64,000 nt of DNA. Origin: Methylomonas sp. ZR1. GTDB taxonomy: Bacteria > Pseudomonadota > Gammaproteobacteria > Methylococcales > Methylomonadaceae. Shown here piece after piece: positions 12,420-59,308 of the stretch (position 1 is the stretch's first letter; each line of letters opens with the position of its first letter). Under the pieces are notes generated by a model, which saw only the letters and a program-made list of their open reading frames with translations, had not been told where the DNA came from and ran no database searches. A program made the position numbers and the translations under genes. The DNA is taken from the NCBI RefSeq assembly GCF_013141865.1, contig NZ_RCST01000001.1, positions 1,798,001-1,862,000 on the forward strand, given 5' to 3'.

Positions 12420-12751
12420 GTGAAGACAACTGCTGTGCTGTTAACGCAGCAGCGGTACAACATCCTTCGAGCAATTCCGGCGGTATGCCCAAGCCGCGCA
12501 TGCGCACCGAAAATAGATCCAGCGGCAGCACCGAAAGCTTTGGCTGTGCCCCGCGGGGCTACAGGGACATCCACAACGTACTCGGCGGCACGCCGCAAGC
12601 GCCGGTGCGCACCGCTGCAAGCCTCGGCGGAATCTCCAGGGGATTGGGATGTGCCGACGCACCAGTCGGCGGTAACCACGAGAGGGTTTTGCGTGCCGCC
12701 CGGACACTCGGTAACCGGCCTGATCCCGGCTTGATCAACCACTTGATTTGA
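12420..12751 (+). ncRNA. Candidate structured RNA, HEARO / IscB omega-RNA-like
   Basis: About 330 GC-rich bases with no convincing protein in any frame but dense self-pairing. Stems: CTGCTGTG / CGCAGCAG (12430-12452); CTGTGCCC-CGCG-GGGC-T-ACAG (12544-12564); CGGCG / CGCCG (12583-12595); GGTGCGCACC (12604-12613); GCCGAC / GTCGGC (12653-12670). A long-range helix ACATCC (12567-12572) / GGATGT (12647-12652) encloses several of them. A good promoter points into it. The GTGAAGAC start, length and layout recall HEARO RNAs, the omega-RNAs of IscB nucleases, which also occur without an iscB gene. No iscB gene is in the window. Class assignment is from memory of the pattern and is tentative; the structured, non-coding nature is better supported. 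Confidence 0.45.
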
Positions 12752-13093
12752 CTGGTCGGTGCTGCCAACGCCGGCCCGAATGAATTCGACAGAAAACTAC
12801 CGGATTGGCGTGCGAATGGATTAGCCCGACAATCCGGATGGTTTGGCTGGCGAGGATGTTTCCAAGTTGGCGTGCTGGGTTCTTAGAATCTGAATGAGCG
12901 GCATGTCCGCAACTGAGCTGGCGACATCGACTAGCCAGTTCAGATGCAATTCTGGTCATCGATTCCGATAGGATTCTACTGGTAAAAAAATGTCGGACTT
13001 TGAGAGTGGCGAACTGTCACAATCGACCCTAAGTTGCCTGACGGGTAGATAATACGACCGACAGCTCAGTGTCTCATTGCCGGCGGACAAGAG

Positions 13094-13159
13094 ATGGCTT
13101 GTAAACCCAATCATATTTCTTGTCCTTATTGCTTAGGCAGTGGTTGTAATGGAAAATAG
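13094..13159 (+). CDS. Possible 21-residue cysteine-rich micro-ORF
   Basis: MACKPNHISCPYCLGSGCNG followed by K and a stop. Four cysteines, including CPYC and a GSGC turn, resemble a zinc-knuckle. It overlaps the next micro-ORF by 11 nt. No good ribosome site; it may be chance. Confidence 0.25.
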   Translation: MACKPNHISCPYCLGSGCNGK

Positions 13160-13274
13160 AATCGTTTTTTGGAATTCAGTGGAATGTCATATTTTTCAAC
13201 GTAGCTTCGAGCGTTTGAAAAAGAATGGATTTAAATTAATTGTTTATAACTGGAACCATGCTAAAAATGGCTAG
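13149..13274 (+). CDS. Possible 41-residue small protein
   Basis: A basic peptide starting MENRIVFWNSVECHIF and containing ERLKKNGFKLIVYNW, which reads like part of a real protein. It lies at the left edge of the AT-rich island, 86 nt before the phosphoesterase gene. No Shine-Dalgarno sequence is evident. It could be a truncated remnant of a longer gene. Confidence 0.28.
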   Translation: MENRIVFWNSVECHIFQRSFERLKKNGFKLIVYNWNHAKNG

Positions 13275-13359
13275 AATACATGACATCAGATTTTATATGT
13301 ATTGTGTTAGCCATATCTTTATGTTCCGACCTCCAATCTTATCAGCATAATACGGAATA

Positions 13360-15111
13360 ATGATAAACATTTTGCATATTTCAGATTCTCATTTTGGGAT
13401 TGATGAGTCCAATAACGAACAGAACTTGATTTTAAAGCGTCTTGTTAGCTTCGCACATAAAAATATCAAAGAAGTTGATATTTGTATATTTAGCGGTGAT
13501 ATTTCTCAGTCAGGACAGGAATGGCAGTACGAAGCTGCGTTCAGATGGCTTTTAGACTTGCTTATAAAATATCCAGAATGCCAGTTGTTTATAGTTCCTG
13601 GAAATCATGATATTGATCGTGTTTTAAAAAAAAGAAAAACCAATCGATTCGCAGAGCATCGTGATAGCTGTATTCAATCAGAGGAAAAATATAAAAAACA
13701 GAAATTACCTAAACACTATAAATATGGCCTGGACAAATTTATTGAATTCCACAAAAAAATACAATCTGATCCAAAATTAAAAGTAATTTCAAGTTGGGAT
13801 AATGTGTTTGGGTGTGCAGCCAGTATTGAAGTTGATAATACACAAATTCATATATGTGGACTAAATACTGCAATCATGTCTTTTGATGATGAAGACGAGG
13901 GTAAACTGATTGCAGATATTCCAACTTATAACGGTTTTATTGAAAAGACAAATCCTACCACTGATTTAATAATTGCTGTTTCACATCACCCGGTCGTTGG
14001 GGATAGTAATATTGAGCGATTTTTGATTGAATGGAATGATATAAAACTAAATGAGTTATTAATGCAGCGTTCAGGAGCGCACTTATATCTGCATGGGCAT
14101 TTACATACACAATCAGCTATAACTAAAATGATGGGAACTGGCCAATTTCTTACAACACTAGCAGGAGGTGCTACATACATATCAAAGTATCCAATGAGAT
14201 TTGGACTTTATCAGATTGATGTAAATGCTTCTGAAATTGAAATAAAGACATACAACTATAATGTACAACGGGGGGAATGGATAAATGACAATACCAAATC
14301 TGATAGGGTGGCGGCAGTTTTACCTAAAGTATTAGCAGATCAGAATCGCTTAAGAATGACTGAATCTCATTTATATGATGAGTTAAATTACTATATATCA
14401 AGCCAAGATGATGTATCAAATATTATTGATAAAATAATATTGTATTACTGTAGTAGTTTGAGCTCTTGCCTCAAATTCAAGGATTCAAAATCAATAAATG
14501 TCGATACAGCGCTTCTGTACAAGGAAATTCTTTCTGCCATGAAAGAAGGGATTAGGATTAATATTTTTGATCATGATATAAATAGATGGAACGAGCTAAT
14601 AAATGACGGGGATAAAATAGGCTATAACACATTTAATTATAGCAAGGATATAATCTCTTATTCTATTGCTGCGCTAGCAGAAAAGCCATTTTATTCGCTA
14701 AATAGAATTTTTGTGTTGAGTTTGAGTGAGGATATAGAAAATAAAGAATCATTGTTTAGAATACTCAAAATATTAAAGGCTATAAATGAAAGTACTTGCA
14801 AATATGATCGAATCACCACAAGGATATTTGTAGCAGATGAGCTTCCTGAGCACATCATTTTACGCGATAAGTTGATCAAGCTAAAGGATGTGGTTTATGT
14901 AGAATGGGAAAGCAATCATTTTTGTGTCTTTACTGAAAATATTGATTTTAAAAAAAGGCAAAATGCAAGAGACTCAAGCTCCGAAATCTCTACAGATAAA
15001 ACCAAGGCAGAGGAAGTCTTAGAAATTTACTCCAAAATAGAGCCGATATCTTACTCAATAGATCAATTCATTCATAAATACAACGGTGGTTATAATGAAG
15101 TTTATTCATGA
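13360..15111 (+). CDS. Calcineurin-like metallophosphoesterase with unknown C-terminal domain
   Basis: 583 residues. All metal-binding blocks of the calcineurin-type phosphoesterase family are present in the first 260 residues: HISDSHFG, FSGDISQSG, VPGNHDID, AVSHHP and LHGHLHT. Such enzymes cleave phosphodiesters in nucleic acids or nucleotides. Residues from about 330 to 583 form a second, helix-rich domain with no motif I recognise. It is the first of three overlapping genes in an AT-rich island; the next gene starts inside its last 17 nt, so translation is coupled. Codon use and base composition differ sharply from the surrounding GC-richer chromosome, indicating transfer. Confidence 0.92.
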   Translation: MINILHISDSHFGIDESNNEQNLILKRLVSFAHKNIKEVDICIFSGDISQSGQEWQYEAAFRWLLDLLIKYPECQLFIVPGNHDIDRVLKKRKTNRFAEHRDSCIQSEEKYKKQKLPKHYKYGLDKFIEFHKKIQSDPKLKVISSWDNVFGCAASIEVDNTQIHICGLNTAIMSFDDEDEGKLIADIPTYNGFIEKTNPTTDLIIAVSHHPVVGDSNIERFLIEWNDIKLNELLMQRSGAHLYLHGHLHTQSAITKMMGTGQFLTTLAGGATYISKYPMRFGLYQIDVNASEIEIKTYNYNVQRGEWINDNTKSDRVAAVLPKVLADQNRLRMTESHLYDELNYYISSQDDVSNIIDKIILYYCSSLSSCLKFKDSKSINVDTALLYKEILSAMKEGIRINIFDHDINRWNELINDGDKIGYNTFNYSKDIISYSIAALAEKPFYSLNRIFVLSLSEDIENKESLFRILKILKAINESTCKYDRITTRIFVADELPEHIILRDKLIKLKDVVYVEWESNHFCVFTENIDFKKRQNARDSSSEISTDKTKAEEVLEIYSKIEPISYSIDQFIHKYNGGYNEVYS

Positions 15112-15778
15112 TAAAAAAATTATAGATCGCTATAGCGACCACTATACAGTTCTGGTTTCCGTTAACAATGTTACAAATCATGCGCCACTTATAGAATTTA
15201 GCCAAAATCTTTCTTCAAAGATTTCAGAAAATTATTTGAAGGATAATATTTTCCCTTTAACTGAAAAATGGCAGGCCGTATTTAGTAACATGGGCGCGAA
15301 GCCAAAATACAAATCATCTCTAACCTCTTTATATGATTATTTTCAGAGTAAAAATAAGCTTTATAAGATAAATCCAATAGTCGATTTTTATAATTTATAT
15401 TCACTCTATATGGGAATGCCAATGGCGGCTTATGACTCTAATATGATAACTGGGACATTAAGCTTAACCGAGCCTGGCAAAGATTTTGAGTTTTCACCTC
15501 TTGGAAATCCAACCTCGCGCCAAAAAACTAAAGAACGAGAAATAGCTTATATAGACGAAGAGAAAGTTATATGTCGATATTGGAATCTGCAAGATTGCGA
15601 CGAAACAAAGATAACCGATAAAACGAAAAACATCTTATTTGTATTTGATGTTATTTCAAACCAAAACGAGGTTAACGAAATATTAAAAAAAATAATAGAT
15701 GATTATGGGGCTATTTTTTCAGGAAACATTCAGTCTGGAATTACCGGAATTGGAATTGGAAACGAATTGTCGCTATGA
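15095..15778 (+). CDS. Stand-alone B3/B4 domain protein (PheRS-beta editing-domain type)
   Basis: 227 residues from the ATG at 15095; a GTG lies 9 nt upstream. The central blocks WQAVFSNMGAKPKYKSSL, INPIVDFYNLYSLYMGMP and AAYDSN match the B3/B4 domain of the phenylalanyl-tRNA synthetase beta subunit, which in the synthetase hydrolyses mischarged tRNA. Free-standing copies are known, but their roles are poorly defined. It overlaps the phosphoesterase by 17 nt and the oxygenase gene by 4 nt (ATGA), so the three proteins are probably made together. An editing or amino-acid-binding role is inferred from the domain and from the amino-acid-oxygenase neighbour. Confidence 0.87.
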   Translation: MKFIHDKKIIDRYSDHYTVLVSVNNVTNHAPLIEFSQNLSSKISENYLKDNIFPLTEKWQAVFSNMGAKPKYKSSLTSLYDYFQSKNKLYKINPIVDFYNLYSLYMGMPMAAYDSNMITGTLSLTEPGKDFEFSPLGNPTSRQKTKEREIAYIDEEKVICRYWNLQDCDETKITDKTKNILFVFDVISNQNEVNEILKKIIDDYGAIFSGNIQSGITGIGIGNELSL

Positions 15779-16416
15779 GTTTTAATTTTAAACAATACGA
15801 TATAAATGACTTAGCAAAAGAGTTTAGCAACAAAAAAGTCATTAAATTATCTGGCTTGCTTTCAAAAGAAGATTTGATTTTCTTTAAGAGAAAAATACCG
15901 GAGATTATGTCTTACGCTTTACGAAAAGATTTTTTAATGCCTCAAACAAGTTACACTCCAAGGAAAATGACCGTTGTTAATGGATCAGTAACAAATAATC
16001 AAGCATGGCTAACTACCAAGTATGGAAATAAAGAATTAATTAAGACACTAACCAGGATTTCTGGTAGCAAGGTGCGTGAATGTGATAATCTTATTGAAAA
16101 TATCATTATTACTCGTCTTCATAAAAAAAATGACACGCACGGATGGCACTATGATGACTATCCATTTGCATTAATATTATGCATTGAGTCACCTCGAATT
16201 AAACAAGGAGGCTTTGTTGAATACATAAACAAAGGAAAGACTAAGAGAATATATTTAAAAGAAGGTGACGGTTATTTTATGAGAACTGATTTAGTTCATC
16301 ATCGAGTTACGCCGTTAAAAGATGACTGTGTTAGGACGATAATAAATTTTACCTATGCGATCGCTAACACCCTGGTTGTCCCAAATGGTTCGGCAGATTT
16401 GCTTCTTACAAATTAA
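15775..16416 (+). CDS. BesD-like Fe(II)/2-oxoglutarate oxygenase (HxD, hydroxylase type)
   Basis: 213 residues. The core THGWHYDDYPFALIL followed by QGGFVEY and a distal VHHRVTP with VRTIINF matches the BesD family of free-amino-acid radical halogenases and hydroxylases. Iron ligands: H125, D127 and H176. Arginine R187 is placed to bind 2-oxoglutarate. In BesD-type halogenases the aspartate is a glycine, leaving room for chloride; here D127 is kept, which predicts hydroxylation rather than halogenation. A free amino acid is the likely substrate by family. Third gene of the AT-rich coupled operon, with ATG overlapping the previous stop by 4 nt. Confidence 0.85.
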   Translation: MSFNFKQYDINDLAKEFSNKKVIKLSGLLSKEDLIFFKRKIPEIMSYALRKDFLMPQTSYTPRKMTVVNGSVTNNQAWLTTKYGNKELIKTLTRISGSKVRECDNLIENIIITRLHKKNDTHGWHYDDYPFALILCIESPRIKQGGFVEYINKGKTKRIYLKEGDGYFMRTDLVHHRVTPLKDDCVRTIINFTYAIANTLVVPNGSADLLLTN

Positions 16417-16770
16417 GTCCATAAGGTGCGCAGATTATAGGGTGCTGCCGTCAGGCGCACCGTTCGCGATTGTTGCTCCTCGCATGGCTCGGCACGACCT
16501 ATAGGTGGTCGCACCTTTGTGGGATTACGGCTGGCGGCTGTAGATCTATCAGCAGACCTTTGTCCAGAAAAACCATCTGTCTGCTTATGGCCGATAGGTT
16601 GAGATCGCCAACGGCGGCTTTGTGGCTCTGCGGCTCACAGAGTCTAACTTCGCCGACTGGCTGCCTTGGAGAGGTGCGAGAGGCAAAAATGGGCTGCTGC
16701 TGCCGACCATAATGCGGAGAACTACATTTCGGCTAGCAAAGTCCGGAGTGGGCTTTCGCTACTACCCGCA
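16417..16770. pseudogene. Non-coding stretch with a possible decayed reading frame
   Basis: No intact gene. One plus-strand frame from about 16520 to 16740 reads protein-like for about 70 codons (IYQQTFVQKNHLSAYG, then VEIANGGFVALRL and ESNFADWLPW) but is broken by two stop codons near 16541 and 16595. It may be a remnant of a gene lost at the right edge of the AT-rich island. I do not recognise the family. Confidence 0.25.
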
Positions 16771-17124
16771 TTAGCACTGCAAGCTTTCAATGGCTAGCTT
16801 CCTCGCAATTTCCTCAGCCTTACAAGCAGCCTCTAGTCTAGCCAGTTCACCGCTTTTCTCCATTAGCTCGTAAGAATATGCATCAACTGGTCCGTTATAC
16901 TTCATCTCGCGATGGGCTGCTAAACCGTCTTCTTTTGACCACAGCGCACCTTCAGTGTTGATCCCCCGGTCTTGGCTCATTTGCAAAATTGCCAGCAATT
17001 CTTTTGGCGACTTGTAAAAATAAGAACACTTGTCTTGCACCCATTCCAACGTATAAAAATCGGCATCTTCCGGGTCATGCCGTTTATAAATATCAGCTAT
17101 CGCCTGTAAAATTTCACGGGACAC
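16771..17124 (-). CDS. Small protein of unknown function
   Basis: 117 residues, rich in charged and aromatic residues, with a helical C terminus (ELARLEAACKAEEIARKLAIE). It starts with GTG; TTGGAG lies about 8 nt before it, which supports the start. No signal peptide, membrane segment or known motif. It stands alone, with about 350 nt without genes on one side and 540 nt on the other. Confidence 0.6.
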   Translation of the reverse strand: MSREILQAIADIYKRHDPEDADFYTLEWVQDKCSYFYKSPKELLAILQMSQDRGINTEGALWSKEDGLAAHREMKYNGPVDAYSYELMEKSGELARLEAACKAEEIARKLAIESLQC

Positions 17125-17661
17125 AATATTTACTCCAACTTATTTTGATCGGTTTTTTTCAAAGGCATAAATAAGGATAGCGTAACCCAACTCAGGCTAT
17201 GTTTACGTGCTATCGGAGAATCGCAGCTGATCAAAGGTTCGAACATAGGTACCGATAGCGACGACCATGGGCAGCGTCACCAATACAATGATTGTTCGAT
17301 GCCTCATGTCCGTGTGTGACGCCCAACGTAAAGCTAACCTGTTAACTGTCACCACATCCCTAAGTCAGGCGTTCGAGTCATCTTAATCTTACGTAATATT
17401 CCGTACATAACGCTTGGGCTTTCAATAATAGATTAGATTTTTGACCCAACACCAAGCCAAATCATTGGTGCCAATGAGCTAGTTTGCAGTCAAAGATCAT
17501 AGATTATTCTTCGGCAACTCTTGGCCTGCTGCCGGAGGCCTAGATAGATAGTCGTCTTCGAAGAAGCAAGACTCTTAGATGCTTGGGCTTGCGTCTGCAT
17601 TGGCGAAAAACGTATGTCGGGTGAGGATCGAAATAGCGCTTACAAATGCATAAGATTTTCT
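17125..17661. other. Intergenic stretch without recognisable gene
   Basis: About 540 nt with stops in all frames. No RNA gene, repeat or insertion-sequence end was recognised. Confidence 0.5.
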
Positions 17662-35800: not shown

Positions 35801-35991
35801 CTGGAATATCAGTTGGTGGAGGATATAGCGGAAATTTGGCCGCAGCAAAACAACAATTGATCAAAGAGGAAGGAGACATTGATGGCAACAATATTTCAAA
35901 GTTATTGATGAGTGCAGCCGGCCAAAATCGCATGGATCTCATAGATCAGATTAGTAGCTTTAATCGAGCTAGAGGACTAATTAATTATTAA
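32794..35991 (+). CDS. traG: Mating-pair stabilisation protein TraG
   Basis: 1065 residues. The N-terminal ~450 residues are the membrane part of TraG (helices at about 25-45, 55-72, 325-375, 390-410, 430-450), the rest a long soluble periplasmic region rich in Ser, Ala and Gln. TraG stabilises mating pairs and, through its C-terminal part, recognises the entry-exclusion protein of the recipient. From about 35400 to the stop the DNA is clearly AT-richer than the rest of the gene, which suggests that the C-terminal domain was exchanged by recombination. Confidence 0.93.
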   Translation: MFEIFSVGDSAYLQAVLNAIAMISGTGDYRTAAAVGGLIGVIIVMLRALLQWDGRGIRYQDLLLAYVLWLMLYAPSVRVSIEDAYTGSVVVVDNVPLGPAVVGSVMSNMGYRTTRLFEQGFGTPSMTGNGFADSLQTLTAVRKNLLSRVNLGAANVPNAGSDMETSFANYVRECTLTGVDLNQKSVDAILRDADPLNAIRFDSDIYMTQIFVGGQPQTKTCTDAWADLSVVANGNFATALEGLLQPTLGVPAAGDTVPKIQDAFDALAGPGVVDAADYMLMSAIMPMFEKGVIGRHEDGLHWNKAAMVEQAIQQRNTQWAAEQTLFAKIVRPMMAFIEGLSYAIAPIMAFVVMLGNVGIRMNIGYFSMLLWIQLWMPILAVINLFIQMSAAGKMAALTTATHNLPSMMGIYQLDMELQQWLSIGGMLAASTPAITLMLIYRGAVTATHFLGRMDGGDYVNEKIATPDVISPAPLLNAQAQHQYSPLSAITQTGVDKVLPTFTAGKDMSAAVSSAYSASEQATSSFMQSLSSTASKSASISNDAFDSRSLGNQIASSSSYTDAYNRQFGEAFAKKHADTGISADHFSALVAGSANAGGKTSNDKLNAAISGRLQNDFKVGQDKSDAIAADISQTVNDSQGYQAGLAKSLAMDAQTGTRNVASMGLQNQELSSLQHSATDAVSASESYQQTLSAQQRFGTQASFGAAETGYKIAHDPGLMERLDRTLDQYGLRGDTQRLASQWKAAGWISNADQAYAAAGMSLLTGFSSPSYRTLDDQQSHQAHISGYQLLGDAFNAPQADQSWNASRNETLKTNAPETGKVQASIEQANLKDPREETESLNQRARAQIGSATGKIAGGEARVEAQHDRNLAEREQNSKEGFGQLANVKAEHFRQSIAAAANDTPSVAEATYDYLGGSIYNTAKNIEAVGSSGAESIKEFTSNTTEAYSNGASFWDSVKYGASKSYSGFIQTTQAWADQRINEIGDKLTPSQKSYYRAAMFEAFAGISVGGGYSGNLAAAKQQLIKEEGDIDGNNISKLLMSAAGQNRMDLIDQISSFNRARGLINY

Positions 35992-36001
35992 GAACCATGA
36001 A

Positions 36002-36595
36002 TTATTTGTTACGAAGAATTTGTCCAAAACCAACAATGAGCCCTCGCAGAACCATGGCAAATGAGAGCATGATAATTGGTACGGTAAGTTCACTGTTAAT
36101 ACTCCCAAGTACCCAGGCTACAAACACTAAGGTAGCCCAATAGTAATTACTTTCATGGGAAAGACGATTTGCCAATTGTTCAATACACTGAAAAACTAAT
36201 TCTGCTAATGCTAGAGTAGTAAAAGTAACGAAACCAAAAAGGGCAAATGTAGGAAGTGTTTCAGGCAGCATGTCTTTTGAACTGCCCATGAATGTAAATC
36301 CAAATAATCCAGCTGCCAAGCTAAAAAAATTAAAGTGCTTTGTAGTTAATGTGCGGGTATGAAAACGCTGCAAAAACTTCTGTAATCCACTCGGAAAACG
36401 CGCAAACGTTGCGCCGCAAAATGGGCAAATCGATTTCAGTGGCTGACCATAGTAAATGACGACCCTCGGCACCATTGCTCGGTTACATTCATGGCAATGT
36501 ACAGTGGCGTGATGTCCGCTAAACATTGTTTGGACGGATCCGGATTGCTGAATAGCGGTGCTGGCTTTAAATCGGTTTGATAGAGAGGATGACAT
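36002..36595 (-). CDS. Zinc-ribbon membrane protein next to traG
   Basis: 197 residues. The N-terminal soluble part has a zinc ribbon (C34, C37, C57, C60: HCHEC and CPFCG); the C-terminal half has about three to four membrane helices (FFSLAAGLFGFTFM, FALFGFVTFTTLAL, YWATLVFVAWVLG, IIMLSFAMVLRGL). It lies tail-to-tail with traG, 10 nt apart, and shares its AT-rich end composition. In related elements the gene after traG encodes the entry-exclusion protein, so that role is a reasonable guess, but no direct match is seen. Confidence 0.65.
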   Translation of the reverse strand: MSSSLSNRFKASTAIQQSGSVQTMFSGHHATVHCHECNRAMVPRVVIYYGQPLKSICPFCGATFARFPSGLQKFLQRFHTRTLTTKHFNFFSLAAGLFGFTFMGSSKDMLPETLPTFALFGFVTFTTLALAELVFQCIEQLANRLSHESNYYWATLVFVAWVLGSINSELTVPIIMLSFAMVLRGLIVGFGQILRNK

Positions 36596-42446: not shown

Positions 42447-43718
42447 TTACACTTCAGCCACTGCCTTAGCCGCCAATTTACGCTGAATCACATCCGCCAA
42501 ATACCGGGCATCGTCGGCAATCCCCAGGAACCGCCCGGAACCCCAGGTATGCAACCAGGGCAAACCGATAAAATACAGACCATCCACGTTGCTGACGCCG
42601 CGATCGTATTGCGGAAAGCCGCGGCCATCGAAGGCGGACAACTCTATCCAGCGGTAGTTCGGTCTAAAACCAATCGCCCAGATGATGCTGGTGATATTTT
42701 CGGCATCGGCATCAATGCGGGTAGGATCAAACTCGGGTTCCCAGACTTTGCGGAACGGCGGCTCGACCGGTGCATCGATATTGTGTTCGGCGATGTAGCG
42801 GTCGATGTCGTTGCGGATATTGACGTAGATTTCGTCGGCGTCATCCAGGTTTTTGGTCAAATCGGGCAAGAACTCCAATGTGCTGCCGTCGATATTGGCC
42901 ATGCTGCCGTAAAGTTTTACGCCTTCCAAGGCAAACTGGCGCAAGTCGATTTCGTGACCACCAGCGCGCCCCGTCAGGTAATGATTGGTTTTATGCTTGG
43001 CTTCGTCGCCCAAGGGATGGCGGTCTATGGTCAATTGATAAAAGCCCAGGTCAAACAACCATTCGGTGGTTTCGCGGCCGCGATACAGGCGCGGCGAACG
43101 CGGGGCGCTACCGACCGCAAGATGCACCTTGCGACCGGCCAGGTGCAGGTCTTCCATTAACTGCACGCCGGATTGGCCTGTGCCCACCACCAGCACTTCA
43201 CCTTCCGGCAGTTGGTCTGGGTTGCGGTAATTGACCGAATGAATCTGGGTGATGTGTTTGGGCAGGCTGTGGGCATAGTCGGGCACGATAGGAATATCGT
43301 AGCCGCCGGTTGCTACGACCAGATGGTCGGCGGAAAACTCGCCGGCCGAGGTGCTGACATGCAATTTGCCTTGCTCGCCACGCCAGACCCGATTCACCGC
43401 GACACCTTCCATTACAGGCGCATCTACTTTTTTAGCGAAAGCTTCAATATAAGCGACGATTTCATCTTTCAGCATAAAGCCTTGCGGATCGTCGCCCTGA
43501 TAAGGAAAGTCAGGCAGTTGGCATTGCCAGTTTGGGGTGACCAAACAAAAACTATCCCAGCGGTCGTTACGCCAAGAGTGGCCGATGCGATTTTTTTCGA
43601 AGATGATGTGGCTGATGCCGTGCTTTTGCAGATTGTAACTGACGGACAAACCGGCCTGCCCGCCGCCAACGATAATCGTGTCATAGTGCAGACGGGTATT
43701 TTCTGATTTTTCTTTCAT
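42447..43718 (-). CDS. MSMEG_0569-family flavin-dependent oxidoreductase
   Basis: 423 residues. N-terminal FAD motif IIVGGGQAGLSVSY; second nucleotide motif VVGTGQSGVQL for NADPH; conserved IIWAIGFRPNYRW and LPWLHTWGSGRF near the end. This flavoprotein monooxygenase-like family is restricted almost entirely to the Nit1C nitrilase cluster. Its substrate is unknown; it presumably oxidises the product handled by the cluster. Last gene of the cluster, 40 nt after the MSMEG_0570 gene. Confidence 0.93.
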   Translation of the reverse strand: MKEKSENTRLHYDTIIVGGGQAGLSVSYNLQKHGISHIIFEKNRIGHSWRNDRWDSFCLVTPNWQCQLPDFPYQGDDPQGFMLKDEIVAYIEAFAKKVDAPVMEGVAVNRVWRGEQGKLHVSTSAGEFSADHLVVATGGYDIPIVPDYAHSLPKHITQIHSVNYRNPDQLPEGEVLVVGTGQSGVQLMEDLHLAGRKVHLAVGSAPRSPRLYRGRETTEWLFDLGFYQLTIDRHPLGDEAKHKTNHYLTGRAGGHEIDLRQFALEGVKLYGSMANIDGSTLEFLPDLTKNLDDADEIYVNIRNDIDRYIAEHNIDAPVEPPFRKVWEPEFDPTRIDADAENITSIIWAIGFRPNYRWIELSAFDGRGFPQYDRGVSNVDGLYFIGLPWLHTWGSGRFLGIADDARYLADVIQRKLAAKAVAEV

Positions 43719-43757
43719 GGCGTCCTCGTGGTTATGAGTTGGGTGTGTTGTGTTGGG

Positions 43758-44045
43758 TTATTCGATGAACTCGGTCACGCTGACCTGGGGATTATCACTT
43801 TCCAAAAATTGGCTGGCCTTGGCTTCGATTTCCGCCAATTGGCTCATCGCGCTGGAGCAGGTGTAGCCGTATTTCTTCCGCACCCGCTCGCTGGCTATTT
43901 CCAAGGCCTCACGACTATGCTTGACGAACTCCGGTAAGGGATAAGTTTGGCCAACTTGGAAATAATCCTTAATCACCAGTGACGGCGAATAACACAGGCT
44001 TTCGGTTTGGTCCGGCCAGCGGACGCGGAAGCGCATTTCAGGCAT
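43758..44045 (-). CDS. MSMEG_0570-family nitrogen starvation response protein
   Basis: 95 residues from the ATG at 44045; longer frames run into the upstream glycosyltransferase. Starts MPEMRFRVRWPDQTESLCYS, the typical opening of this Nit1C-only family, with a helix-rich C terminus. It overlaps the upstream gene by 8 nt. No catalytic motif; possibly a subunit or carrier protein for the cluster enzymes. Confidence 0.88.
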   Translation of the reverse strand: MPEMRFRVRWPDQTESLCYSPSLVIKDYFQVGQTYPLPEFVKHSREALEIASERVRKKYGYTCSSAMSQLAEIEAKASQFLESDNPQVSVTEFIE

Positions 44046-45213
44046 ATTGAGTTCCTTTGGCATTGATGAGTGAACGGTAAATTTCAAGATGGCTGTTGGC
44101 CGACTGCGCCCAGGAAAATTGCTCGCTTAAGCGCTTGGCGATTTTTGGCAAGTTATCCTTGGGGAAATCATCAATGGCAGCGTTCATTGCAATCGAAATT
44201 GCTGCGCTATCTTCTGGATCAGTCCAGATGCAGTCCTGAATATGCAAATAATCAGTAAACGGCGGCCGTAGCGAAACAATGGCCGGCGTGCCGGAGATAA
44301 TGGCTTCCAGTACCACCAGACCAAAACCCTCGGTCAGCGATGGAAACACCAGTGCATCAGCCAGACGGAACAAACCCGGCATGTCGTCATCGGGCAACGG
44401 GCCGGTGACGATCAAAGCTTGGCCGGGTCCATCCTGCAGACCGCTCTCGGTGACAGCGGCATTGAAGCGCTGGCGATACTCGTGATGATTCAACAAACTA
44501 GCGCCGCCGACGATGATCAACTGGGCATTGGGGCGCTGCTGCAAAACCTGGCGGAATGCGGCGAAGATGCTTAAGGTGTTTTTGCGCGCCTCAATGCCGC
44601 CGACCGCCAGAAAGATCGGCCCACCACGCGTCAAGCCCAACGACTGGCGCAGTGTTTCGTCATTGGCTTGTGGCATGGGGGAATAGCGCTGGGTATCAAC
44701 GCCGTTATTGACTTGCATGGCGGCGATACGATGCTGGTTGAGCAACTTGTCCTGCCAATCGCGGCTGACGCACAAGACTTGTTGCGCGGCCAGGAACGAG
44801 CGGCTTTGCCACGCTGCCAACGAACTATCGTCGAAAGGATCCAGATGATGCACGGTGCGGATGAAACCATCGATAATGCCGCGTTCGCCGAGTTGGGCCA
44901 TCGCGCAACCGCTGATGGCATCCTGAGCGTGGTAAATATCGAACGTGTCGGCATCGGATCGGCTGAAGTAATCGATATAAGCCTGAATGCGTTGACCGAC
45001 AGCGGCGACCAAATCGCCGCTCAATGTGGGTAGCGGTATCAGGGTTGTCTGACAGTGCGCGGCGCGAAAGAAGTTTTTGCCGGGTTCCGCTGCGGCTATC
45101 AAAGTCACGTCGTGCCCCAAATCCTGCAAGGCCTCCGCCAACTGCATCGCGTGTACCACACCGCCGCGCGGGTTGACGGAATGGGTCAGCATGGCAATTC
45201 GTAGTCTTTGCAT
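44038..45213 (-). CDS. MSMEG_0565-family glycosyltransferase
   Basis: 391 residues. GT4-type glycosyltransferase: N-terminal HSVNPRGGVVHAMQLAEAL (nucleotide-sugar-independent domain), mid VGGIEARKNTLSIFAAFRQV, and the C-terminal EGFGLVVLEAIISG donor-binding motif (E-X7-E). Member of the Nit1C cluster, suggesting that a sugar is attached to a cluster product. It lies 2 nt after the AIR-synthase-like gene. Confidence 0.93.
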   Translation of the reverse strand: MQRLRIAMLTHSVNPRGGVVHAMQLAEALQDLGHDVTLIAAAEPGKNFFRAAHCQTTLIPLPTLSGDLVAAVGQRIQAYIDYFSRSDADTFDIYHAQDAISGCAMAQLGERGIIDGFIRTVHHLDPFDDSSLAAWQSRSFLAAQQVLCVSRDWQDKLLNQHRIAAMQVNNGVDTQRYSPMPQANDETLRQSLGLTRGGPIFLAVGGIEARKNTLSIFAAFRQVLQQRPNAQLIIVGGASLLNHHEYRQRFNAAVTESGLQDGPGQALIVTGPLPDDDMPGLFRLADALVFPSLTEGFGLVVLEAIISGTPAIVSLRPPFTDYLHIQDCIWTDPEDSAAISIAMNAAIDDFPKDNLPKIAKRLSEQFSWAQSANSHLEIYRSLINAKGTQYA

Positions 45214-45215
45214 GA

Positions 45216-46184
45216 CTAGCCCTGCCGTTTTGGGCCGCAGCCGATCAAGGGTTCGCGGTTTAAATCCCAGAGTAGTTGTTCTTCGTCGCCGGCTTTCAGC
45301 GTTAGCCGGCGGCTATCGTCAGTTTTGCCGACTGCCGCGCAAGCGATGCCGCGCTGCTTAAACAGTTCGATCACGGCTACACAGTCAACCGCATCGACGC
45401 TCAGCACAAAGCCGTAGCTGGGAAAGCAGCGCAACCACCTTTCCAAATCAATCTCAGCTGGGCGCGGTATCGCGTTGATGTCGATCACTCCGCCTAAGTC
45501 GGAGCATTCCAGCAGCATCAACAATGTGCCGATGACACCGGCATTGCTGATGTCCTTGGCCGACGCGCATAAATCAGTTTCAGCCAGTGTTGGCAATAAC
45601 TCCAAATCCTGGCGCAAGCGTTCGGGTGGTGCGCCAGTGCTGGCATCCCACCATAGATACGGTTCGCGAAAGTGGCCGCGCAAATCAATCGCCGCCAAAA
45701 GAATCTGTTCGGGTTTGGCGGCAAAACTGCTCAGCAGCCGTTTGGCGCGACCTAGAATAGCTACCGACAATTGCGGGACATCGTTCCTTAAATTGGTATG
45801 GCCGCCGACCACCGGTACGCCGTAGACTTGCGCGGCGGTCGCCAGACCACCCAGAATCGGCTTGGCTTGGTTTTCGCCGTTGCTCCAGATCGCATCGAGG
45901 ACGGCGATAGGCCGACCGCCCATGGCATAAATATCGCTGACATTGACCATCACCCCGCAATACCCGGCAAACCAGGGTTGGCTGGCAACAAAGTCGTTCA
46001 GGTAGCCTTCGCAGGCCAGCAATAGATAGCCGTCAGCATCGGGGATGGCCGCGCAGTCGTCGCCTACGACGATCTCCGCTTCGGCATGCCGAGGTAAATG
46101 CTGCATGACGCGGGCAATATCGCGTTTATGCGCCAGTCCTGAGCCTTGGCGGATTCGGAGCGTCAAATCAGCCAGCCAGGTCAT
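45216..46184 (-). CDS. Sll0787-family AIR-synthase-like ATP-binding protein
   Basis: 322 residues from the ATG at 46184, which overlaps the upstream stop by 4 nt. PurM/ThiL-type fold: VVGDDCAAIP, MVNVSDIYAMGGRPIAVLDAI, GGHTNLRNDVPQLSV and KDISNAGVIGTLLML match ATP and Mg2+ binding regions of AIR synthase and SelD relatives. It probably activates an amide or carboxylate with ATP in the Nit1C pathway. Core member of the cluster. Confidence 0.93.
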   Translation of the reverse strand: MTWLADLTLRIRQGSGLAHKRDIARVMQHLPRHAEAEIVVGDDCAAIPDADGYLLLACEGYLNDFVASQPWFAGYCGVMVNVSDIYAMGGRPIAVLDAIWSNGENQAKPILGGLATAAQVYGVPVVGGHTNLRNDVPQLSVAILGRAKRLLSSFAAKPEQILLAAIDLRGHFREPYLWWDASTGAPPERLRQDLELLPTLAETDLCASAKDISNAGVIGTLLMLLECSDLGGVIDINAIPRPAEIDLERWLRCFPSYGFVLSVDAVDCVAVIELFKQRGIACAAVGKTDDSRRLTLKAGDEEQLLWDLNREPLIGCGPKRQG

Positions 46185-46723
46185 GCCGCAATCCGATTGG
46201 TGGTAACAAAACCGATAGCGCCGTCCGCATACGGTGGATACCAAGCCAGGTCTGCTTGCATCAGATAATGCGGCCGCCCATGCACCGAGATTTCCGCTAA
46301 GGATTTCCAGTGCAGGCGGCGAAATAGTAATTGGTTGCGGCTTTGCACCTGTGCCAGAAAGCTATTGCAGCCTTGAGCGTGTGCTGAAGTGACCGCCAAT
46401 TTGATCAACGCCGCGCCGAGACTGCCTTGTTTGCGATAGTCTTGATCCACCGCCAACCTCGAGCCCCACCAAACGCCGGGCTTTTCCTGATGAATCCGCA
46501 CGGTGCCCACAACCCGATCCGGCAGACCGGCGACGCAGGCGATGGCGACGATGGGCGTGGCGATGTTGTCAATGTCGTCCAGATCGTCGCCGGCAAAAAT
46601 ACCTTGTTCCTCACAGAACACCGCCTGGCGCAGCGCCAGCATTTGTTTGCGCTCCCAATCCTCGGTGACGAATTTGATCAGGTAGGTGTTGGCAAAAAAC
46701 GGTTTAAAGTTGGCTATCCACAT
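46181..46723 (-). CDS. MSMEG_0567-family GNAT N-acetyltransferase (nitrogen starvation)
   Basis: 180 residues from the ATG at 46723, with GAGGTG just upstream; an ATG at 46735 would overlap the radical SAM gene. The N-terminal FVTEDWERKQMLALRQAVFCEEQGIF and the SRLAVDQDYRKQGSLGAALI acetyl-CoA loop define this Nit1C acetyltransferase. It overlaps the AIR-synthase-like gene by 4 nt. Substrate unknown. Confidence 0.92.
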   Translation of the reverse strand: MWIANFKPFFANTYLIKFVTEDWERKQMLALRQAVFCEEQGIFAGDDLDDIDNIATPIVAIACVAGLPDRVVGTVRIHQEKPGVWWGSRLAVDQDYRKQGSLGAALIKLAVTSAHAQGCNSFLAQVQSRNQLLFRRLHWKSLAEISVHGRPHYLMQADLAWYPPYADGAIGFVTTNRIAA

Positions 46724-46724
46724 C

Positions 46725-47837
46725 TCACACCTCATAACTGGCCAGTGCCGAGCAGGCGGCGCACTTGGCGCAACCGGCTTTCATGTCTTGGGATAGCAAG
46801 TTTGCCTGCTTTAGCATCGTCCCCAATTGCGGCAGGATTTTCGCCATAAAGCCTGGCGTCGGCGCCGGATGGTTTGCCAAGGGCGTGCCGGTAATGGGTA
46901 CGAATGGCACGACGAAGGGGTAAACGCCTTTGGCTATCAACCGTTCGGAGACCGACAAAATCGCTTCCGGCGTGTCGCCCAAACCCACCAGGATGTAGGT
47001 ACTCACCTGGCCACGACCGAACACTGCAACCGCGGCGTCGAAGGCATCCATGTAACGTTCCATAGCAACACCGGCCTTGCCGGGCATGATGCGGGCACGA
47101 ACTTCGGGTGTAACCGCTTCCAGATGCATGCCCAAACTGTCTAATCCGGCGGCTTTCATGCGTTCGAACCAGATGTCGTCGTCCGGCGGCTCGCATTGGC
47201 CTTGAATGGGTAGATCGACTACCGCTTTAACGGCTTCAGCACTTTCGCAGAGCAGTGCCGCGCCCCTATCCGTTAGATTCGGCGTGCCGGTGGTCATGAC
47301 CATGTGCTTGACCTGATCCAGTTCCACCGCTGCTTTTGCTACCTCGGCCAGTTGTTCAGGCGTTTTGCGCAAAATGGTTTTGCCAGCTGCCAATGACTCA
47401 CCGATGGCGCAGAACTGGCAGGATGTCTTGCGGTTACTGTAACGGATACAGGATTGCAGCAGCGTGGTCGCCAACACATCCGCCGAATGCAGTGTGGCGA
47501 TTTGCGAATACGGAATGCCGTCGGCAGTCTGCAAATCGTAAAAACGGGGTTGGCGTGGAAATTCAATGTGGCTGACTACTACGCCGTCGCGGCGAATCGA
47601 GCTGATGCCGTGTGCATCCGGCCGGCTGGCGACGAACGGCGACTCACAAGCCGAGACCGTGGCAATCGGTATCATCACGGTTCGCCCAGCCAAATTTATG
47701 GCTTTGTGATCGGAAGGACCGGCGCCGCCACGGCGACCGGTTACGCCAACTTCGCAGCCTTCCAGGCGTAAGCCTAAGGATTGCAGATCGGCGATCAGCT
47801 CTGCCAGGCCGACGTTAGTTTGTATTGATAGCGTCAT
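46725..47837 (-). CDS. MSMEG_0568-family radical SAM protein
   Basis: 370 residues. The iron-sulfur site is unusual: C130, C140 and C143 give CX9CX2C instead of the normal CX3CX2C, with CQFCAIGE resembling biotin-synthase-type enzymes. A second set of cysteines closes the protein (C356, C359, C362). Both are suited to iron-sulfur binding. Together with the nitrilase it is a marker of Nit1C clusters. It overlaps the nitrilase gene by 23 nt. The reaction is unknown. Confidence 0.93.
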
Positions 47838-48810
47838 CGCGGTCGCTCTCTTGGATGGGTTGAGATGAAACGGCTGGTCGTTCGCTGAACATCGGTGCCG
47901 CCGGGCTGTCGTCGATGCGCAGGCTGAGCAGTTCAGGCCGGGCGTAATGGCCGACTGAATCCATCATGCGCTTACGCTTGGTGATTAAATTCATATCAAG
48001 ATCGGCGATCAATATGCCTTCGCCTTCACGCAAGGGTTCTACTACATGCTGACCTTCCGGCGAAATGATGGCGGTGCAGCAACCGCCGCGCAGGGCTTTC
48101 TGCAAGCTAGGGTCAGTAGTCACGGCGTCAATTTGCTCGTCACTGAGCCAGCCGGTGGCGTTGATGACAAAGCAGCCGGATTCCAAGGCGTGATGGCGGA
48201 TCGTTACTTCAATTTGCTCGGCAAAGATGGGGCCAACCAAGGAGCCCGGAAACTGGCTGCAATGAATTTGTTCGTGCTGGGCCATCAACGCATAGCGGGC
48301 CAACGGGTTGTAATGTTCCCAGCAAGCCAAGGCGCCGATGCGGCCGATGCCGGTTTCCACGACCTTCAAACCAGAGGCATCACCCTGACCCCAGATCATA
48401 CGTTCGTGATACGTCGGGGTAATCTTACGGCGTTTCAGCGCCAGACGGCCGGTTTCGTCGAATATCAGTTGCGTGTTGTACAAGCTGCCGTGGTCGCGCT
48501 CGTTAATCCCCAACACCACCACAATGCCGTGCGCCTTGGCTTGCGCCGCGACCGCGTCGGTGATTGGTCCCGGTACCGTCGGCGCGTAATCGTAAAGCTT
48601 CAAGTGCTCGCGGCCCTGGGTTACCGGCGGCAATACGAAGGAAAAATACGGGTAATAAGGCACAAAGGTTTCCGGGAATACCACGATTTGTGCGCCTTTC
48701 GCGGAGGCGTCGCTGATGGCTTGGCAAACCTTGTCGCCGGTGGCGGTGGCGGATTCGAACACCGGCGCGATCTGTACGGCGGCGGCTCTGACGATAGTGG
48801 GCATAGTCAA
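47815..48810 (-). CDS. Nit1-type nitrilase
   Basis: 331 residues. The catalytic triad is E47 (VFPETFVP), K129 ([12 protein letters not shown]) and C163 ([11 protein letters not shown]), with the nitrilase-specific CWEHYNPL rather than an amidase loop. It hydrolyses a nitrile to the acid and ammonia. In the Nit1C cluster, linked in Pseudomonas to growth on cyanide as nitrogen source, it would act on a cyanide adduct or derived nitrile. Preceded by a terminator-like hairpin after the first cluster gene. Confidence 0.96.
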
Positions 48811-58542: not shown

Positions 58543-59308
58543 AGATGGTTACAGCATTTATTAAGGACTTACAGTAAGGCAACTCCTATTGGTTAAGTCG
58601 AATCTGAAAATCTTGAACTTCAATCGGCAGTCTGCTTTTGCATCCTTAGCCGTCTTTTAAGTAATTGAGGATTTGAGTTTGCGATTGATCGGTTATGGCC
58701 GAACTTGCTCTATTAGAATGTTCGGCTTGAAATGTTTCTGTATTAGTGGCGCAAAATCCGGAGTTTTCCCTTCTCGTGGCACCCGATCTAGGTTTGGACG
58801 CTGGGACAGGCGGGAAGCTTAGGAAGGACGATGAAGCCAGTTTATAGGCGGCAAAGTGCGGTGGGTATAGCTTGCAAGAGCTTTAAGTGACATATGTTGG
58901 TGCTTTTTATTATCGAGTGCCAATCATCTAATCGGCTTGCGTATTATCCAGAATGAAGGTACACAATGCGATCAACAATTTATTCTCTAGCTGGCCTGTG
59001 CAGAAAATCCGAACCGTGTTTTTCGCCTGACCTTGCTAGCCTGAGGCAAAGGCGTCAACGTATATCCAACAATTGCTAGCACTACCCCACGGAGTATCTG
59101 GCATTGCGGTAAAGCCCTGAATCCTGGCGGGCCGAAGAAAGTATCTACAAGCAGTTGCCAAAATGGAGCTGCTGCCTTTTCTGCAGTAGTGAATACCTCT
59201 TGGGGGTAAAGCCTTGAGCGGATAACGGGTGGCACCAGCAGGCCCAGACCAAAAACTCTACCTCAGTGCAACAACGCCAAAACCTTGCACAAAACCAGGA
59301 ACCAAAAT
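58543..59308. other. Intergenic stretch without recognisable gene
   Basis: About 770 nt between convergent genes. Short open frames on both strands show no protein-like pattern. No RNA gene, insertion-sequence end or clear terminator was found. Confidence 0.5.

Follow-up and report, generated by a model that had tools for sequence, protein, structure and literature searches.

An effector-like protein, a predicted amino-acid hydroxylase and a B3/4 protein in a probable anti-phage cassette of Methylomonas sp. ZR1

A three-gene cassette among described relatives

The two-part phage alarms CBASS, Pycsar and Thoeris use nucleotides or NAD derivatives as their signals. DS8 and PDC-S60 defend against phages as single large phosphoesterase proteins. 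CtdA is a canavanyl-tRNA(Arg) deacylase that strips a toxic basic amino-acid analogue from tRNA (PMC10018355). Here we analyzed a 64,000-nucleotide stretch of the Methylomonas sp. ZR1 genome (NZ_RCST01000001.1, positions 1,798,001 to 1,862,000; the whole stretch is called the window), which carries a cassette of three genes related to parts of these systems and to the BesD/HalD oxygenases. We interpret the cassette, from its sequence, as mobile, modular and probably anti-phage.

The three genes lie on the forward strand and overlap by 17 and 4 nucleotides (nt), which suggests that they share one transcript. The features of the cassette are:

13030 to 16418, no strand: the cassette, AT-rich, at the left end of a 46-kb island
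13360 to 15111, + strand: two-domain effector-like protein of 583 amino acids (aa), metallophosphoesterase plus PLD-like domain
13360 to 14376, + strand: metallophosphoesterase domain (Pfam Metallophos, 2.4e-16 over residues 3-250)
14377 to 15108, + strand: C-terminal domain with a predicted PLD-like fold (alignments, AlphaFold2 model, Foldseek/VIA-align)
15095 to 15778, + strand: stand-alone B3/4 (aminoacyl-tRNA editing-type) protein, 227 aa, ATG at 15095 (Pfam B3_4, 1.1e-19)
15775 to 16416, + strand: BesD/HalD-family Fe(II)/2-oxoglutarate (2OG) oxygenase, HxD hydroxylase type, 213 aa, with an NGSA C-terminal tail (Pfam HalD, PF23169, 1.1e-46)

The guanine-cytosine (GC) content of the cassette is 33.1% (32-33% in each of the three genes), compared with 50.4% in the mobile part of the island (16579-40845) and 53.6% in the chromosomal flanks within the window. 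All parts except the C-terminal domain of the first protein belong to named families: the Metallophos, B3_4 and HalD matches all exceed the curated Pfam cut-offs, and the three products gave no other Pfam match over cut-off. Weak matches to Pfam Rhabdo_matrix, MC7, XPD_arch, SPOC, CpeS, Ku_PK_bind and UPF0113 (E 0.025-0.11), to NCBIfam PFL_1563 (0.074) and to the PADLOC '2OG' model (0.015) were dropped as chance. An Rfam scan of 12700-17400 with E up to 1 returned no match, which ruled out a known regulatory RNA there. Among the genomes searched, the whole trio occurs in this genome only, and we found no description of this gene combination in the open-licence PubMed Central literature.

A sequence-only reading had reported three genes overlapping by 17 and 4 nt in an AT-rich island, with a stand-alone B3/B4 domain and an oxygenase carrying H125-x-D127, H176 and R187 in a BesD-like frame. 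The open reading frames (ORFs), strands, overlaps and GC content agree with this description, as do the Pfam B3_4 match of a 227-aa gene without a synthetase and the alignment and PF23169 match of the oxygenase. The structure comparison with BesD and lysine hydroxylases that it had proposed matched the BesD fold. Its start at 13094 was rejected as a gene start; no gene of the trio begins at this position, which falls in the leader downstream of the island junction at about 13030. The calcineurin-type phosphoesterase that it named accounts for the N-terminal half of the first product but not for the whole, as residues ~340-583 form a separate conserved domain.

The effector-like protein and its C-terminal domain

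The N-terminal half of the first protein has the usual metallophosphoesterase motifs (D9-x-H11, GD46-47, GNHD81-84, H209/H210 and GHLH246-249) and matches the PADLOC models PDC-S60 (8.3e-34) and 'Effector/Endonuclease' (4.7e-19). The N-terminal phosphoesterase domain is thus shared with DS8 and PDC-S60, but the profiles of these proteins cover the window protein over the first ~290-325 of their ~1000 positions only. Membership of DS8_antiphage (NF053861) was rejected, with 100.5 bits against an NCBIfam cut-off of 790. We consider it likely that the first gene encodes a regulated defence effector. Four database proteins (P0056-P0059) fuse a RelA/SpoT domain to a phosphoesterase that is 35-39% identical to the window N-terminal half, and these are possibly a further defence architecture.

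Alignments of the C-terminal domain (~240 residues) revealed the conserved sequence DHDINRWNEL...DKIxYNTFNYS. Nothing in Pfam matches the domain over cut-off, no NCBIfam or PADLOC match covers it, and we found no description of it in the open-licence PubMed Central literature. Three rows from the PDB (E 0.19-0.22) were dropped as chance. The AlphaFold2 model of the C-terminal piece has a mean confidence (pLDDT) of 73.3, which falls under 50 at piece residues 1-36, 82-85 and 238-244, and Foldseek/VIA-align matched a PLD-like fold over most of the domain. A catalytic PLD enzyme was rejected, as the HxKx4D motif is missing from P0053, P0054 and P0060. TrmB and TrmBL2 are PLD-fold proteins that are not lipases; however, the window PLD-like domain is fused to killing domains and not to a DNA-binding part, and a PDB profile search with it gave no sequence match to TrmB/TrmBL2.

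Two further proteins in the database have the C-terminal domain, one behind a phosphoesterase and the other (P0060) behind a Pycsar/CBASS-type TIR domain (PycTIR 3.1e-24, CAP12 1.3e-15, PADLOC TIR effectors 1.6e-45). P0060 and the window protein are 37% identical over this domain, so the killing part is swapped and the PLD-like domain kept. The CBASS and Pycsar effectors CAP12 TIR-STING, PycTIR and PADLOC 'Effector/Endonuclease' have similar N-terminal killing domains joined to a C-terminal domain. In contrast to those systems, Pfam matched neither a nucleotide cyclase nor a CD-NTase in the cassette genes, and classical CBASS or Pycsar was rejected on this ground. The C-terminal domain also differs in its predicted PLD-like fold. 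Its fold matches were PLD-like rather than SAVED, STING or cyclic-nucleotide receptors, although absence from such a list is not decisive. This domain, common to phosphoesterase and TIR effectors, is an unannotated, testable module even if the signalling mechanism proposed below fails.

The hydroxylase and the B3/4 protein

The window oxygenase belongs to the BesD/HalD family, with a score above the Pfam cut-off and the BesD fold. Its H125-x-D127, H176 and R187 align to H137-x-G139, H204 and R215 of BesD (published BesD numbering, taken with an assumed offset of 3), and the functional roles that we assign to these BesD residues are presumed. A BesD-type halogenase was rejected: the sequence at 125-127 is HYD and D127 aligns to G139 of BesD, which makes this a hydroxylase-type member. 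R63, E108, H122, D128, N191 and T193 correspond to BesD R74, E120, H134, D140, N219 and T221, and these six pocket residues are invariant in nine small HalDs. By matching residues, the pocket is of the lysine/ornithine type, and we predict with considerable confidence that the protein hydroxylates a free basic amino acid.

The nine small HalDs group in a single clade (support 100/96), and every one of them has the HxD motif. Their NG[ST]A tail is present in 9/9 and in 0/28 of the other rows. The fold, the Fe/2OG ligands and the lysine/ornithine pocket residues are shared with BesD, HalA-HalB-HalD and the lysine hydroxylase 7jsd (PF23169). The window oxygenase differs from these relatives in having D127 in place of the halogenase glycine, in being shorter, in its own NGSA tail and clade, and in adjoining an effector-type gene. 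Among sampled genomes, HalD matches at E <= 0.001 were found in 17/398 from the phylum and 26/385 from the class of G687. Beyond the window's own HalD (310 bits), two matches in the phylum sample and five in the class sample reach 1e-30; the scores of these best seven do not exceed 146 bits, and all seven lack the NG[ST]A motif.

The B3/4 protein scored 71.1 bits against a Pfam cut-off of 29.3. A profile built from it and 14 relatives has this protein as its sole match in the own genome and, in the PDB, best matched the entries 9mkl (2.8e-20) and CtdA (9f7e, 2.2e-18), and phenylalanyl-tRNA synthetase at 3e-3; with the single sequence, the E values were 1.4e-8 for 9mkl and 2.6e-7 for CtdA. These two best solved relatives are stand-alone B3/4 proteins like the window protein. 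However, the window B3/4 is a distant relative of CtdA and its cassette neighbours include no canavanine genes. Editing of a basic amino-acid analogue by CtdA fits a hydroxylated lysine-like compound, although this is not proof. That the window protein removes the hydroxylase product from tRNA charged with it is plausible, if slightly short of even.

In a Phycisphaerae metagenome-assembled genome (L003:9100-10672), a B3/4 relative shares 14 nt with the ORF upstream of it, which by eye encodes a different type of phosphoesterase-like product (301 aa). Phage records contained three weak B3/4 matches (26.5-28.7% identity) and no HalD relatives, and P0060 matched them once, weakly and in its TIR part (33.8% over 18%). 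No relatives of B3/4, HalD or the C-terminal domain were found in viral contigs, and a DNA search of E. coli genomes found no relatives. At below 60% identity, 55 plasmid records match B3/4, 35 match HalD and three match the phosphoesterase.

Linkage, rival explanations and genomic site

The protein database gives the longest contig per cluster, and linkage was read from equal listed contig sizes. By this measure, both non-own proteins with the C-terminal domain pair with a HalD of the small clade. P0054 and P0003 share a listed contig of 236,624 bases (sources ncbi and lgn in both), and P0060 and P0002 one of 2,895 bases (source lgn in both). The first agreement is very unlikely to be a chance event; the second is weaker. 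HalD-effector pairs were found and B3/4 pairs were not, so the supported core is the effector domain with the hydroxylase. The sequence-only reading had proposed a search for co-occurrence of the trio; the C-terminal domain and the hydroxylase recur together on two other contigs as judged by size, and no linkage of B3/4 was found outside this genome. The recurring core of swappable effector, PLD-like domain and hydroxylase resembles a modular defence against phages more than a pathway for an antibiotic.

This linkage bears on the possibility that the effector defends alone, with its PLD-like domain directly sensing a phage protein or nucleic acid, and with the oxygenase and B3/4 as riders or in a side role. 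The translationally overlapping genes and the association of the same domain with a specific HalD clade argue that the oxygenase belongs to the system, and we regard defence by the effector alone as unlikely.

Somewhat less likely still is an antimetabolite pathway, in which the oxygenase would make a hydroxylated amino acid toxic to phages or competitors, B3/4 would give self-immunity and the phosphoesterase would be accessory. A BesD-family hydroxylase with a free amino-acid pocket and a B3/4 protein nearest to CtdA are consistent with such a pathway. Some other HalD genes on plasmids also lie amid biosynthesis or export genes, with a non-ribosomal peptide synthetase in L007, a LysE-type exporter in L008, and ATP-grasp and aminotransferase genes in L005. 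However, neither the ORF list nor Pfam revealed an exporter, synthetase or other pathway gene among the three cassette genes, and the first gene is effector-type, its C-terminal domain being shared with a TIR effector. In addition, a profile search of 12 ordinary HalD loci (five on plasmids with 6-kb flanks and seven in genomes with ~1.5-kb flanks) found no B3/4 and no PLD-like domain. The triad pattern is unmatched in two of these loci, L084 and L005. The interpretation offered with the sequence-only reading, which resembled this pathway, is partly supported.

Chance neighbours in a hot spot of mobile cargo, with no joint function, are improbable. The trio was found in this genome only among those searched and sister genomes carry different cargo at the site, as such an origin would predict, but all three genes share a GC content of 32-33%, overlap one another, and include the HalD and C-terminal domain that are linked by size on two other contigs. 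Hydroxylation of a protein side chain (on the effector, or a ribosomal or phage protein) that licenses or silences the effector is very improbable, as the BesD amino-acid pocket residues are present and invariant in the nine small HalDs and most BesD-family entries lie about 10 Z units higher.

For the modular defence reading, we propose a mechanism that builds on what can be read from the sequences themselves, namely the architecture, the families, the triad type, the domain swapping and the absence from a close genome. The hydroxylase would convert a free basic amino acid, most likely lysine or ornithine, to its hydroxylated form. The product, or its loss during infection, would be read by the PLD-like domain and switch on the effector. 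The active effector would then cut nucleic acid (phosphoesterase) or destroy NAD+ (TIR), stopping the phage together with the cell. B3/4 would hydrolyze tRNA mischarged with the product, allowing the signal to be made without poisoning translation. Such a mechanism would account both for changes of the effector and for its possible joint travel with an amino-acid oxygenase and a tRNA editor. We propose only tentatively that a hydroxylated amino acid controls the effector while B3/4 keeps the product out of protein, and we infer with similar or slightly greater reserve that the hydroxylase product is what controls the effector. A full immune system with a modified-amino-acid signal, comprising a hydroxylase as maker, a PLD-fold receptor, interchangeable nuclease or NADase domains and a B3/4 safeguard, is doubtful. 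If true, an alarm that signals with a hydroxylated amino acid and has its own safeguard for translation would introduce a new kind of signal chemistry along with a new receptor domain, and would bring both BesD-type hydroxylases and free-standing tRNA editors into immunity.

Several observations weigh against this scheme. None of the 21 non-own B3/4 matches, from a search that reaches close relatives only, shares a listed contig size with any of the 29 HalD or 11 effector matches, and B3/4 could thus have been added locally. A scan of genome contigs with B3/4 gave one locus, L003, whose B3/4 relative (38% identity) is accompanied by neither a HalD nor a PLD-like domain. Contig linkage was inferred from equal sizes and not from the contigs themselves. 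For P0004-P0009, six of the eight remaining small HalDs, no effector partner is listed; the effector search scored just the 7997 candidates with the most words in common. Searches for the C-terminal domain returned 1/369 class genomes and 1/311 order genomes, the window's own both times. Its PLD-like assignment draws on three sequences and a model with a pLDDT of 73, weak within one conserved motif, and just one Foldseek match has E <= 0.001. The nearest folds include nucleases and DNA-binding proteins, so a small-molecule ligand is proposed by analogy only. Promoter-like sites were not in excess, with 14 found compared with 16.5 in shuffled sequences.

Collinearity of the window with a same-species genome (G551) ends at 13029 and resumes at 59280, and G551 has 872 bp of filler between these points; 13030-59279 is thus a 46-kb island that is missing there. 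To the right of the cassette, the island contains:

16419 to 16596, no strand: dispersed repeat of ~176 bp, directly after the cassette, with copies in many genomes of the genus
16579 to 40845, no strand: mobile part of the island, with TraI_2, TraG_N and Fic domains and UmuC/UmuD-like genes (by eye)

A different species of the genus (G547) matches 16579-40845 at 92.5-98.7% identity, except for 35990-36401, and this part of the island has therefore probably moved recently. G547 shares the island from 16579 on only and has other cargo to the left, including a PADLOC Lit match (L050:12860-13786, 4.3e-12) ~2.5 kb from the shared mobile part. At the chromosomal site of the island, G546 has a two-gene pair (L055:9155-13188) matching PDC-M23A (3.9e-103) and PDC-M23B (E 0), the latter also HamB-like. 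Given this other cargo in sister genomes, we favour reading the cassette as a separate piece of mobile cargo, at a position that a candidate defence pair also occupies.

Left of the Lit-like gene, G547 has an 874-aa gene that weakly matches Ppl (3.2e-6), and transposase-like ORFs (by eye) come after it. At 42447-48810, the window carries in a row an FAD oxidoreductase, a glycosyltransferase (also matching GT4-conflict), and GNAT-like, radical SAM and nitrilase-like genes (partly by eye), which we take to resemble a Nit1C cluster. The host is probably a methane oxidiser, as its genome has three PmoA/AmoA-family matches, one of which (G000:C1:2904249-2904950) contains an internal TAA.

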